Assembly (NCBI RefSeq): GCF_002161055.1
Contig: NZ_NFLT01000001.1
Span: forward strand, 1-64,000
DNA: 64,000 nt
Origin: Tyzzerella sp. An114
GTDB lineage: Bacteria; Bacillota; Clostridia; Lachnospirales; Anaerotignaceae
Direction: 5' to 3'
Both the position numbers and the translations under genes were made by a program. Under the pieces are notes generated by a model, which saw only the letters and a program-made list of their open reading frames with translations, did no database searches and had not been told where the DNA came from. Below, in pieces: positions 5,222-56,575 of the stretch (position 1 is its first letter; the number at the start of each line of letters is the position of its first letter).

Positions 5222-6409
5222 ATGAAGAAAATATTATACATACTAGCCCTTACAATATCAATGAATGCTTTTTCTTTAGCCGTCTATGCTGATGAAAAAG
5301 GATTTGACAAAACTATTGTTCCTACATATTCGGAAAGACAGAATTATTATATAGATAAAGGTGAACTTTCAACATATATATCAGAATTATATAAAGGTCT
5401 TTCAGGAAAAGAACTTCCTGAAGTCGAAAACACTTTTACGGATATAAATATCAACACTCAAGATTACATACCAAAATTAGTTTCTCTTGGAATTATGTCA
5501 AAAACTTCAGACACAGAATTTTCACCGGAAAAAACTTTGACAGGTGATGAATTTTCTAGTGTTATAACAAACACAATAAAATCTGTATATCCTGACATTG
5601 AAATAGGAGAAAGCTCCTATGAATTTTTAAAAACAAGAGGAATATGGGATAATACAGCTAAAAGAGACCAAAAAATCACATTGGGAAATGCAATAAATAT
5701 GATTGATGCTACATTAAAATCTGCACCAGAATTTAAAATAGTTGAAGAACCAAAAAAAGAGTCCTCAAATCCTGTTACATATGACAAAATTGCATATTTA
5801 ACATTTGACGACTCACCTTCTGAAAATACAATAAAGATACTTGACACATTGAAAGAATACAATGTAAAAGCAACATTCTATCTTACAGGAAAGGCAGACC
5901 CTGCAATTATTAAAAGAATGGTTGATGAAGGTCATGCAATAGGAAATCACACATACAGTCATGATTATGCTTATATATACTCAAGTGTTGATAATTTCTT
6001 TGAAGATTTTTACAAAGAAGAAGCATATCTTGAGTCTATAATAGGATATAAACCTAAATTGGTAAGACTTCCGGGAGGTTCAAACAACACAGTAAGTAAT
6101 AAATATGGTGGAAGTCAGATTATGAAAGAAATAACAGCTGAATTAACAAAACGAGGATATATATATACAGACTGGAACTCTGAAGCTAAAGACGCCACAA
6201 CAAAAAATATAACTCCACAACAAGTTAAAGACAACATATTCTCAACAGTATCAAAAAATAGAAATGCTGTTGTTTTAATGCATCAGACTGTTGGAAAAGA
6301 AGCCACAGCAGAGGCCTTACCTTCTGTAATAGAAGAATTTAAAAAATTAGGCTTTGGCTTTGATGTTATATCAGAAACCTCTTATAATACTCAATTTACT
6401 TTAAAATAA
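5222..6409 (+). CDS. Secreted polysaccharide deacetylase (NodB domain) with N-terminal SLH-like region
   Basis: The 395-residue protein starts with a signal peptide (about residues 1-23). Residues 60-160 look like degenerate SLH repeats (for example YIPKLVSLGIMSKTSDTEFSP). The NodB domain runs from about 185 to 385. It shows motif 1 TFDDSPS near residue 194, the metal-binding NHTYSH near 241, RLPGGSNN near 283 and LMH near 350. Such enzymes remove N-acetyl groups from peptidoglycan or other GlcNAc polymers outside the cell. Ser replaces the usual Gly in TFDDGPS, while both Asp residues are present. The ATG follows AAGGAGGCGATAA. A 22-bp hairpin begins at the stop codon. Confidence 0.88.
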   Translation: MKKILYILALTISMNAFSLAVYADEKGFDKTIVPTYSERQNYYIDKGELSTYISELYKGLSGKELPEVENTFTDININTQDYIPKLVSLGIMSKTSDTEFSPEKTLTGDEFSSVITNTIKSVYPDIEIGESSYEFLKTRGIWDNTAKRDQKITLGNAINMIDATLKSAPEFKIVEEPKKESSNPVTYDKIAYLTFDDSPSENTIKILDTLKEYNVKATFYLTGKADPAIIKRMVDEGHAIGNHTYSHDYAYIYSSVDNFFEDFYKEEAYLESIIGYKPKLVRLPGGSNNTVSNKYGGSQIMKEITAELTKRGYIYTDWNSEAKDATTKNITPQQVKDNIFSTVSKNRNAVVLMHQTVGKEATAEALPSVIEEFKKLGFGFDVISETSYNTQFTLK

Positions 6410-12193: not shown

Positions 12194-12215
12194 TTTTTAT
12201 CCCCCTTTTTCTATA

Positions 12216-12238: not shown

Positions 12239-12257
12239 GTTTAAAATTCCAGACAAA

Positions 12258-12342
12258 AATAAAAAAAACCAAACCATAAAAACTCAGTATCACATTTTAT
12301 ATAAAAGAATAGAATAATACTGCGACTTTATGGTTCGGTTTT
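12258..12342 (-). terminator. Leader terminator (attenuator) of the GH20 gene
   Basis: In the transcript, AAAACCGAACCATAAA (12342-12327) pairs with TTTATGGTTTGGTTTT (12280-12265) with one G-U pair. An inner CAGTAT/ATACTG stem adds to it. A run of T follows (12264-12258). This long stem lies about 70 bases before the start codon, so by default it would stop transcription before the coding region. Confidence 0.85.
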
Positions 12343-12365
12343 GCCTGCATTACCAGTAACAATCC
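12337..12365 (-). promoter_or_regulatory. RAT: ribonucleic antiterminator site for a BglG/LicT/SacY-family protein
   Basis: The transcript reads GGATTGTTACTGG then TAATGCAGGCAAAACC. This is the 29-base RAT known from sacB, bglP and bgl leaders, with its conserved GGATTGT and GCAGGCAAAACC halves. Its last six bases are the first six of the terminator stem, so the two folds exclude each other. A bound, PTS-controlled antiterminator protein would let transcription pass. No BglG-family gene or PTS gene is in the window. Confidence 0.9.
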
Positions 12366-12391
12366 GAATAACGAATTTTACTTATGGATAA

Positions 12392-12420
12392 AGCATATCA
12401 TGAAAATAAAATAGTTTAAA
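12392..12420 (-). promoter_or_regulatory. Candidate promoter of the GH20 gene
   Basis: On the minus strand, TTTAAA (12420-12415) and TATGCT (12397-12392) are 17 bases apart and just upstream of the RAT. Both boxes are imperfect. The rest of 12421-12600 is AT-rich and shows nothing I recognise. Confidence 0.4.
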
Positions 12421-12600: not shown

Positions 12601-12637
12601 AAAAGAGCTTCTATCTATAAAGATAGAAGCCTTTTTT
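12601..12637. terminator. Intrinsic terminator after clpB
   Basis: GCTTCTATCT pairs with AGATAGAAGC, with A and T runs on the outer sides. It lies some 30 bases downstream of the clpB stop codon. Confidence 0.8.
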
Positions 12638-12666: not shown

Positions 12667-15261
12667 TTAACGTATTACAAACTCATCATTCTCAACATCA
12701 ATAACAAATTTTGTTTCAGGTGCAACATCATCTCTTATGATTTTCTTAGCAATAAGAGTTTCTATATATCTCTGTATAAATCTCTTAAGAGGTCTTGCAC
12801 CATAAACAGGGTCATATGCACTTTCGATAATGTAATTTTTAGCATTTTCAGTAAGTTCACATGAAAGTTGTTTATCTTCAAGACGTTTATTAAGGTCTTT
12901 TACAATAAGGTCAATAATAAATGTTATGTCATTCTTTGTAAGTGGTTTGTAGAATACAATTTCATCAAGTCTGTTTAAAAATTCAGGACGGAAAGAACGT
13001 CTTAAAAGTTCATTAACTTGTTCTTTTGCCTCCTCTTTAATCTCTCCACTTTCGTCAATACCGTCAAGAAGATAGTTTGAACCAAGGTTTGATGTAAGAA
13101 TAATTATTGTGTTTTTAAAATCCACAGTTCTACCCTGTGAATCTGTAATTCTACCATCATCAAGAACCTGTAAAAGAATATTAAATACATCAGGATGAGC
13201 CTTTTCGACTTCATCAAAAAGTACAACTGAATAAGGTTTTCTTCTTACAGCTTCTGTAAGCTGTCCACCCTCCTCATAACCTACATATCCTGGAGGAGCT
13301 CCGATAAGTCTTGATACTGAGAATTTTTCCATATATTCAGTCATATCAATTCTTACAATATTCTTTTCATCATCAAAAAGTGTTTCTGCAAGAGCTTTTG
13401 CAAGTTCCGTTTTACCTACACCAGTAGGACCTAAGAAAAGGAATGAACCTATTGGTCTTTGTGGATTTTGGATACCTGCACGACTTCTCATAATAGCTTC
13501 TGAAACCTTTGTGACAGCTTCATTTTGACCGATAACTCTTTCATGGAGTATGTCCTCAAGATTTATGAGTTTCTCTTTTTCTCCCTCCATAAGTTTTGAT
13601 GTAGGAATACCAGTCCATCTCTCAATAATCTTTGCAATTTCTTCTTCTGTAACTTTATCACGAAGGAGAGTTGCTCTATTTTTTTCCTCTGCAATAGCTT
13701 CTTCCTGTGCCAATTCTTTTTGAAGTTGTGGAAGTTTGCCATATTTAAGTTCAGCAGCCTTATTTAAGTCATAGCTTCTTTCAGCCTTTTCAATTTCAAT
13801 ATTTACATTGTCAATGTCTTCTCTTAATTTCTGAACTTTATTTATTGCATTTTTCTCATTATCCCATTTTGCTTTAAGTGTGTTAAACTCATCACGCATT
13901 TCTGCAAGCTCTTTTTGTATTTCTTTTAAATGTTCCTGAGATATTTTGTCACTTTCTTTTTTAAGAGCAGCCTCCTCAATTTCATGCTGAATTATTTTTC
14001 TCTGTATAATATCAAGCTCCATAGGCATTGAGTCAATTTCAGTTCTTATCATAGCACAAGCCTCATCAACAAGGTCAATGGCTTTATCCGGTAAAAATCT
14101 GTCTGAAATATATCTGTTTGAAAGTGTAGCAGCAGCAATTATAGCTTGGTCTTGAATTTTAACTCCATGATAAAGTTCATATCTTTCTTTAAGACCTCTT
14201 AAAATTGCTATTGTATCTTCAACAGTAGGCTCATTAACCATTACAGGCTGGAAACGTCTTTCAAGAGCTGGGTCTTTTTCAATATACTGTCTATATTCAT
14301 TAAGTGTTGTAGCACCTATACAATGAAGTTCACCTCTAGCAAGCATTGGTTTTAAAAGGTTTCCGGCGTCCATAGCACCATCACTCTTACCCGCTCCAAC
14401 AATAGTATGAAGTTCATCAATGAAAAGTATAATTTTTCCTTCACTCTTTTTAACTTCGTTTAATACAGCTTTAAGTCTTTCTTCAAACTCTCCTCTAAAT
14501 TTAGCTCCGGCAATTAAAGCACCCATATCAAGAGAGAATATAGTTTTATCTTTAAGACTGTTTGGAACGTCCTCTTTAACAATACGCTGAGCAAGTCCCT
14601 CGGCAATAGCTGTTTTACCTACACCAGGCTCACCTATAAGAACAGGATTATTTTTTGTCTTTCTTGAAAGTATTCTTATTACATTACGAATTTCGTCATC
14701 TCTACCGATTACAGGGTCAAGTTTTTTACTTCTTGCCCTCTCAACAAGGTCTGTACCATATTTTTTGAGTACATCATAAGTTGATTCTGGATTATCACTT
14801 GTAACTCTTGTATTTCCTCTTACTGTTGCAAGAATTTTATAAAAATCTTCACTCTCTATATTAAAAAGTTTGAAAAGTTTTTTGTCTACTGGATTAGGAT
14901 TTTTAAGTATACACATAAAAATATGTTCAACAGAAACATATTCGTCTTTCATATTTTCTGCAAGTTTTTCTGCGGCAACAAGAACCTTGTCAACATCAGC
15001 TGAAACATATATGTTGTTTGCAGGTCTGCCGCTTCCTGAAACATGAGGAAGTTTTTCAATTTCACGCATCAGTTCAGCCTGAAAGGCATTTACATTTACG
15101 TTCATTTTCATAAGAAGCTGAGGGATAAGTCCGTCTTCCTGTGTAAGCAACGAATATAATAAATGCTGTTCTTCTATCTGAGGGTTCTGATGCTCTACTG
15201 CAATATTTTGAGCATTCTGTATTGCTCCCAATGAATTCTGTGTAAATTTTTGAGCGTTCAT
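12667..15261 (-). CDS. clpB: ClpB ATP-dependent disaggregase (Hsp104 family)
   Basis: This 864-residue hexameric cytosolic chaperone pulls polypeptides out of aggregates together with DnaK. Order: N-domain (1-145); first AAA+ domain with GEPGVGKTA near residue 208; the ClpB-specific coiled-coil middle domain (about 400-525), which separates it from ClpA and ClpC; second AAA+ domain with GPTGVGKTE near 610; and small C-terminal domain with [12 protein letters not shown]. The length is normal. The ATG follows AGGAAG. A perfect CIRCE element overlaps its promoter, so HrcA control is expected. It stands as a single gene. Confidence 0.97.
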
Positions 15262-38895: not shown

Positions 38896-38913
38896 AATTT
38901 ATAAAACCCAATA

Positions 38914-39087
38914 AATTTTTGGTGGTCGCTAACGACGACATAATAGGGAAACAGGTGTAAATCCTGTGCGGTCCCGCCGCTGTAAGAGAGGAGTTTTTAT
39001 CCGATATATCACTGTATTTTAATTTTAAAAAATATGGGAAGATGGATAAAAGTTATGATACTCAAGCCAGAATACCTGCCAAAAAAT
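38914..39087 (+). promoter_or_regulatory. Cobalamin riboswitch
   Basis: Conserved parts are seen in order: AATAGGGAAACAGGTG, AATCCTGTGCGGTCCCGCC, GCTGTAAGAGAGGAG and, 3', CAAGCCAGAATACCTGCC. The outer stem is ATTTTTGG with CCAAAAAAT. It senses adenosylcobalamin and turns down the following cobalt importer genes. Further hairpins at 39101-39117 and 39131-39144 probably belong to the switching region. Confidence 0.95.
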
Positions 39088-39150
39088 ACTGTAACTTTAT
39101 CTCTACGAGCGATGGAGAAAAGGCTTTTTTACACTTTATAGTGTAACTAT

Positions 39151-56459: not shown

Positions 56460-56575
56460 AAAATCCTCATCTTCCACAATATATTTATATATAATGCGGG
56501 GGAATTGGCACCGTGCTATTATGCCGGTTGCCGGGTGTCACAGGGCCCTGTCCCTCAACCTCTCTTGATAAGTTT
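56460..56575 (-). promoter_or_regulatory. SAM-I (S-box) riboswitch
   Basis: In the transcript: CTTATCAAGAGAGGTTGAGG, then GACAGGGCCCTGTGACACCC, GGCAACC, GGTGCCAATTCC and the closing GATGAGGA. These are the S-box conserved elements in order. When SAM binds, the terminator at 56433 forms and metK is turned off. Confidence 0.97.

Follow-up and report, generated by a model that had tools for sequence, protein, structure and literature searches.

The leader of the GH20 gene in Tyzzerella sp. An114 is, with near certainty as judged from its sequence, an attenuator of the LicT class in which an antiterminator hairpin (RAT) overlaps an intrinsic terminator. It is quite probably read by a LicT-type antiterminator encoded beside GlcNAc-type PTS genes on contig C34, and would be induced by GlcNAc jointly with the operon of this antiterminator and a GH84 gene. 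The pairing of protein and RNA, the control by phosphorylation and the role of GlcNAc as inducer are what we infer from these arrangements, with partner and inducer both likely. The window, i.e. the whole 64,000-nt stretch of DNA that was analysed, belongs to contig C1. The features of the locus are listed in Table 1.

Table 1 Features of the GH20 locus in the window
Feature	Position	Strand	Basis and remarks
RAT, antiterminator hairpin and putative LicT-type binding site	12337..12365	-	Exact consensus, covariance model, covariation
Intrinsic terminator sharing the last 6 RAT bases	12255..12342	-	Stem 12342-12326 with 12265-12281, then U tract
Likely ribosome-binding site GGGGG	12201..12205	-	7 nt ahead of the ATG; by eye
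Terminator-like hairpin 3' of the upstream ClpB/ClpC-type gene (12667-15261)	12606..12631	-	
Putatively controlled gene, GH20 beta-hexosaminidase-like, 1871 aa	6578..12193	-	F5/8C, GH20b, GH20 and three SLH domains

Leader and product of the GH20 gene

The RAT reads GGATTGTTACTGGTAATGCAGGCAAAACC and matches the consensus pattern with 0 mismatches. No other site in the window matches when as many as 3 mismatches are permitted, and 0 matches were found in 100 shuffles. Covariance model R1, which was trained on 10 sequences including this RAT and the other two of the same genome, recovers it in the genome with an E value of 4.8e-14. A chance origin is ruled out by the shuffles and this E value. 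A scan of the window at the Rfam gathering threshold gave no match at the GH20 leader. An initial covariation count over 10 RATs was weak, with 48 of 500 shuffles as high. In a larger set of 61 matches (51 distinct), the alignment of which was fitted to the model and leans towards the structure, 6 of the 8 hairpin pairs are changed on both sides (17 cells), a result reached in 0 of 500 shuffles. Slid registers all do worse in this set.

Folded freely, the segment 12365-12255 forms a 17-bp stem (12342-12326 with 12265-12281) and an inner stem, followed by the U tract, at -31.9 kcal/mol. The z score of this fold is -4.89, and equal stability was found in 0 of 200 shuffles. The 3' bases of the RAT (12342-12337) are paired with 12265-12270 and form the foot of the terminator, ahead of the GH20 start codon (12193-12191). 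When the RAT fold is forced, the energy is -23.6 kcal/mol and the stem retreats 6 nt from the U run. The two folds are predicted to be mutually exclusive across six base pairs, while the upper stem can persist. Since the forced RAT fold is weaker by about 8 kcal/mol, the leader is expected to form the terminator by default and to adopt the RAT fold only with the help of a protein. The hairpin that follows the Clp gene makes the RAT leader look like a separate unit of its own. A promoter scan of the leader gave nothing clear (7 matches against 4.1 in shuffles, sd 1.8).

The encoded protein has a secretion-signal-like start (by eye). Its GH20 domain contains a HIGADE motif with a DE pair, which we take to be catalytic in GH20, and its nearest relative of solved structure is the beta-N-acetylhexosaminidase 6jqf/7ezt (E 1e-78). 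The protein is probably a beta-N-acetylhexosaminidase-like enzyme, with the activity predicted from these features, and its three SLH domains point to anchoring at the surface. The original prediction of an S-layer GH20 protein of 1871 residues agrees with the domains found (GH20, GH20b, F5/8C, three SLH). The RAT, described there as near-exact at 12365-12337, turned out to match the consensus exactly. The further claim that its last six bases begin the terminator, so that the folds exclude each other, holds for the six pairs that are lost when the RAT is constrained; the upper stem can persist. Elsewhere in the window, a gene for an SLH-domain polysaccharide deacetylase (5222-6409, forward strand) converges on the GH20 gene, and cobalamin and SAM riboswitches are located at 38903-39097 (forward strand) and 56464-56574 (reverse strand), respectively.

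Antiterminator genes and RATs across the genome

The genome contains three genes with a CAT_RBD domain, i.e. BglG-family antiterminators, located on contigs C34 and C4. None lies on contig C1 of the window, which rules out a partner in cis and is in line with the original prediction of an antiterminator encoded elsewhere. The absence of BglG-family genes had been named beforehand as the finding that would speak against this prediction; one of the three genes found is linked to PTS genes for EIIA and a GlcNAc-type EIIBC. This nag-linked antiterminator (G000:C34, CAT domain at 169268) passes the NCBIfam LicT equivalog model with 361.6 bits (cut-off 300). It is followed by a glucose-type EIIA gene and an EIIBC gene that passes PTS-II-BC-nag with 593.8 (cut-off 553.2). 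The protein consists of CAT_RBD and two PRDs, in which four histidines align to LicT; these are presumably the LicT phospho-sites. It also has N10, G26, R27 and F31, which we take to be the RNA contacts of LicT. A RAT and then a terminator precede the gene.

A pattern search of the genome with up to 3 mismatches found three RATs, the reversed control pattern 0. Covariance model R1 recovered the same three at E values of at most 1.8e-11, with the next match at 0.04, in a scan that scored 150 of 3354 first-look candidates. Besides the copy ahead of the 1871-aa GH20 gene, the search for further copies thus yielded two, one preceding licT-EIIA-EIIBC(nag) and one, on contig C45, preceding a 2110-aa gene with GH84, F5/8C and SLH domains. 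The licT-nag RAT differs from the GH20 RAT in only 2 apical-loop bases. The GH84 RAT departs from the consensus at 3 positions; its pairs are kept or wobbled, and these mismatches could change affinity or partner. The GH84 part of the 2110-aa protein resembles solved GH84 enzymes (6pv4, E 4e-179). A single GH20 gene and a single GH84 gene were detected genome-wide, each of them behind a RAT. The RATs found appear to mark a GlcNAc transporter operon and two enzymes expected to free GlcNAc, and nothing else that was found. GlcNAc is preferred as the inducer because the licT-nag RAT matches the GH20 RAT and because the set of enzymes fits. Among the sugars considered originally (GlcNAc, lacto-N-biose or a beta-glucoside), it is best supported by this matching RAT beside the GlcNAc-type EIIBC.

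The second antiterminator gene, C34:210617, adjoins a glucose-type PTS IICBA gene and is GlcT-like, with GlcT as its best model at 233.8 bits (below the cut-off of 320) and the IICBA at 531.9 (below 591.8). With such a gene present, the GH20 leader might be read by the GlcT-like protein and follow the state of the glucose PTS rather than GlcNAc, a pattern that would also suit two other genomes, G764 and G769, in which a RAT-GH20 is carried yet the sole antiterminator found is IICBA-linked. We consider this unlikely, since the RAT-like site ahead of the glucose-type PTS gene (C34:208198) is weak and since its sequence, AGTGTGTTACTGGAATGCAGGCATTAACT, has a lower stem unlike that of the GH20 RAT; in this stem, the licT-nag and GH20 RATs are identical. 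This site (E 0.297) was kept solely as a probable GlcT-type site. Other sub-threshold matches were rejected, such as C23:217006 (E 0.04), which lies among fatty-acid-like genes (by eye).

The third gene, on contig C4 (L009:7031-7870), is LicT-type and lies between sucrose-type and beta-glucoside PTS genes, accompanied by a 6-phospho-beta-glucosidase. This context would suit a GH20 leader that answers to beta-glucosides or sucrose; such a role is highly improbable, as the reading frame is interrupted in the assembly by a stop that follows codon 75 and the gene's own upstream RAT-like site is degenerate, with 13.7 bits only. The nag-linked LicT on C34 is thus preferred over both other proteins.

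Four other SLH proteins, taken from a genome in which further SLH genes exist, are at no RAT match: a GH2 galactosidase-like protein, an M60 peptidase, a metallophosphatase/choice-of-anchor protein and one with Ig repeats. Lacking a RAT, the GH2 and M60 proteins appear to be outside the regulon. The GH84 gene follows genes for a response regulator, a histidine kinase and a trypsin/PDZ (HtrA-like) protease on the same strand (L010:1306-4994).

Proposed mechanism and known antitermination systems

In LicT biology, EIIB loses its phosphate to the cognate sugar during uptake; the antiterminator is then freed from phosphorylation of PRD1, dimerises and binds the RAT. Applied to the GH20 leader, the PTS would phosphorylate the nag-linked antiterminator on one PRD when GlcNAc is absent, leaving it inactive, and transcription would end at the terminator. 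Uptake of GlcNAc would release the antiterminator, which could then dimerise and bind the RAT. With the RAT bound, bases 12342-12337 would be unavailable to the foot of the terminator, allowing RNA polymerase to continue into the GH20 gene. The same LicT would open its own PTS operon and the gene for the SLH-domain GH84 on C45, so that import, autoregulator, GH20 and GH84 are predicted to be jointly induced by GlcNAc. GlcNAc freed at the surface would induce both its own import and more surface hexosaminidase, i.e. a feed-forward regulon for GlcNAc scavenging. This leads to a testable rule: surface hexosaminidases would be deployed when GlcNAc is imported, not merely when glucose is scarce.

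RATs with an overlapping terminator are known from LicT and bglPH of Bacillus subtilis and from BglG and bgl of Escherichia coli, where the sugars are beta-glucosides. The system described here resembles B. subtilis LicT in protein family (LicT equivalog above cut-off), RAT class and overlapping terminator. Unlike in LicT/bglPH and BglG/bgl, the sugar and the target genes would be different ones. Within Clostridia, antitermination at the same type of RAT was shown experimentally for BglG of Clostridium acetobutylicum at the bgl operon (PMC12628678). The RAT given there, 5'-GGATTGTTACTG-N6/7-CAGGCGAGACC-3' with an overlapping terminator, is like the one found here. That system differs in being a beta-glucoside PTS operon in cis, and the accessible part notes no surface enzyme in trans (PMC12628678). 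According to a 2016 review, clostridial antiterminators had not been tested by then (PMC4706839).

The closest parallel is NagY of Enterococcus faecalis. According to one report, GlcNAc induces nagE in a NagY-dependent manner through a RAT and terminator, expression of hylA, which encodes the cell-wall-anchored PL8 hyaluronate lyase HylA, depends on nagY, and the NagY RAT is of low similarity to the consensus (PMC9981650). Targets of NagY identified by RNA-seq and RIP-seq include the GH20 protein EF0114, according to a second report (PMC12502629). Both systems share a BglG/SacY-family antiterminator with a link to a GlcNAc PTS and a RAT and terminator of its own, and have large surface enzymes degrading glycans as (here predicted) targets. 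In the present genome, this is seen as an antiterminator beside a GlcNAc-type PTS under its own RAT, with RAT copies on unlinked genes for surface enzymes. The two differ in class (Bacilli versus Clostridia), in target enzymes (a PL8 lyase versus SLH-domain GH20 and GH84) and in the gene arrangement, since EIIA and EIIBC are separate genes here, unlike NagE, which we take to be a single gene. The RAT found here is an exact LicT-type RAT, as opposed to the low similarity described for that of NagY; the system is therefore considered to work like NagY and is not filed as NagY. A clostridial case of the already known NagY-like regulon idea, with different enzymes and a LicT-type RAT, is well supported. 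With it, the idea would reach beyond the Bacilli, where it stems from an opportunistic pathogen, into Clostridia and other enzyme families.

The original prediction knew of no described case for an S-layer-anchored GH20 enzyme. Among the literature matches listed, which cover the field in part, none describes a RAT that controls an SLH-anchored GH20 or a GH84 enzyme, and the claim stands for the former. In its broader sense it does not, since NagY links a GlcNAc-PTS antiterminator to a wall-anchored lyase (PMC9981650) and to a GH20 (PMC12502629).

RATs, surface enzymes and antiterminators in related genomes

When the complete GH20 protein was used for a family-wide search, most matches were to SLH domains. 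A scan of genome contigs for GH20 relatives gave 8 loci. Six of them (L011-L016, best segment 46-51% identical) all have a RAT match in the leader (E 7e-10 to 0.001). L012 and L013 belong to Pseudoflavonifractor, L014-L016 are titled Oscillospiraceae, and L011 is from Candidatus Enterenecus, which is unplaced at family level. In five of the six, the 3' end of the RAT becomes part of a terminator-like stem followed by a T-rich stretch; L014 has the weakest RAT (20.4 bits) and a less clean predicted terminator overlap. Because the six loci are related, and the leaders of L012 and L015 nearly identical, the set amounts to fewer than six independent cases. The proteins of L012 and L016 have GH20 and F5/8C and no SLH match. 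As to the remaining loci, L017 (33% identical, partial) has no RAT and L018 matches in the SLH part only. That the RAT and terminator of the GH20 leader in Tyzzerella sp. An114 are a relic, present yet not regulating expression, is very hard to reconcile with the exact consensus and the intact strong terminator, and also with the leader RATs that these six relatives have though their leaders otherwise differ.

GH20 is present in 69 of 392 order-level genomes, and a credible RAT was found in 0 of 36 other GH20 upstream regions from the order-level genomes (23 large and 13 small genes). A 14-bit match in L239 (G738; E 0.16), about 60-80 nt before a guessed GH20 start, is GC-rich and coding-like with no terminator and was not counted. 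The order search gave its highest score to a RAT (G744:C45) that precedes a gene for a 1624-aa GH20 protein that is only 27% identical to the 1871-aa protein in the catalytic part. At class level, GH84 is found in 17 of 381 genomes with 25 genes (26 rows, two of which are one split match). The 25 include two genes with short upstream DNA (76 and 526 nt). Four of the 25 are preceded by a RAT: the one described above, G390:C26 and two in G092, the latter with shorter variants of 25 nt. In a GH84 tree of 24 rows, from which the split G412 gene was left out, three of these four genes form one clade (100/99) and the fourth stands apart, which amounts to at least two changes. G351 has a RAT-licT-nag operon but 0 RATs in the regions of its GH20 genes (three) and GH84 genes (two). 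In the two other genomes of the genus, GH20 is absent and a single RAT was found, in either case ahead of an antiterminator gene.

The GH20 RATs of L011-L016 have no close match to any antiterminator leader of their own genomes. They share with the GH84 RAT of Tyzzerella sp. An114 a base pair A4-U25 in place of U4-A25. RATs with the flipped pair may be tuned for weaker binding or for a second antiterminator; if true, this would allow staged or integrated expression of the enzymes.

A RAT-GH20 or RAT-GH84 was found in nine genomes, with G092 and the genome of L012 (Pseudoflavonifractor sp. An44), which have all three antiterminator places in common, counted once. Seven of the nine also carry an antiterminator gene that is preceded by a RAT and adjoins a nag-like EIIA gene; EIIBC itself is covered for Tyzzerella sp. 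An114 and G744 only. In G764 and G769, the genomes of L011 and L016 (assemblies of 1.7 and 1.8 Mb), the finding of only an IICBA-linked antiterminator besides the RAT-GH20 may reflect incomplete assembly or a different partner. An antiterminator tree of 63 rows places 26 nag-type rows, i.e. those with an adjoining nag EIIA or EIIBC, in one group (SH-aLRT 85); it is a quick tree with several long branches, and most rows were chosen for a nearby RAT.

A tentative wider reading sees a GlcNAc antitermination regulon common to gut Clostridia. Scattered RATs and one PTS-linked antiterminator family would place GlcNAc import under common control with GH20 and GH84 enzymes (at the surface or secreted) and, for certain lineages, with nagB or ptsHI. 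RATs would have been kept on, or repeatedly recruited to, related enzymes across orders, and the A4-U25 variants may be tuned. A RAT scan is suggested as a way to assign giant surface glycosidases to the regulon of a sugar.

RATs in the order are common and not GlcNAc-specific; they mostly serve other sugars as well. A RAT match at E <= 0.01 is found in 89 of 392 order-level genomes. The contexts were surveyed for 67 loci with up to 3 mismatches (part of the order list, Tyzzerella sp. An114 and its genus), corresponding to 65 distinct sites. An antiterminator gene is next at 46 sites (21 nag-type, 19 beta-glucoside/sucrose, 4 IICBA, 2 unclear). Another 9 sites directly precede a PTS or phospho-glucosidase gene, 2 precede the surface enzymes of Tyzzerella sp. 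An114, and 8 have no reference-set match. One of these 8 is the site before the GH20 gene of G744; the other seven are the general PTS and 1-phosphofructokinase contexts given next.

Some RATs are located before genes of the general PTS. The gene behind the RAT at L088:1501 passes the NCBIfam model of PTS enzyme I, and a ptsH-ptsI-like gene at L074:1501, cut by the end of the locus, is just under the cut-off of this model. By eye, ptsI-like genes also follow RATs at L075:1501, L112:140 and L114:183, and ptsH-ptsI-like genes follow at L119:138 (minus strand). At L091:1501, a RAT precedes a gene for 1-phosphofructokinase (NCBIfam). These contexts suggest antitermination control of the phosphate relay itself. 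Outside the order, a RAT in G175 (L055:1501-1529) precedes a nagB-like gene (by eye), and the antiterminator gene of this genome (L269) is located about 1.8 kb upstream of this RAT on the same strand.
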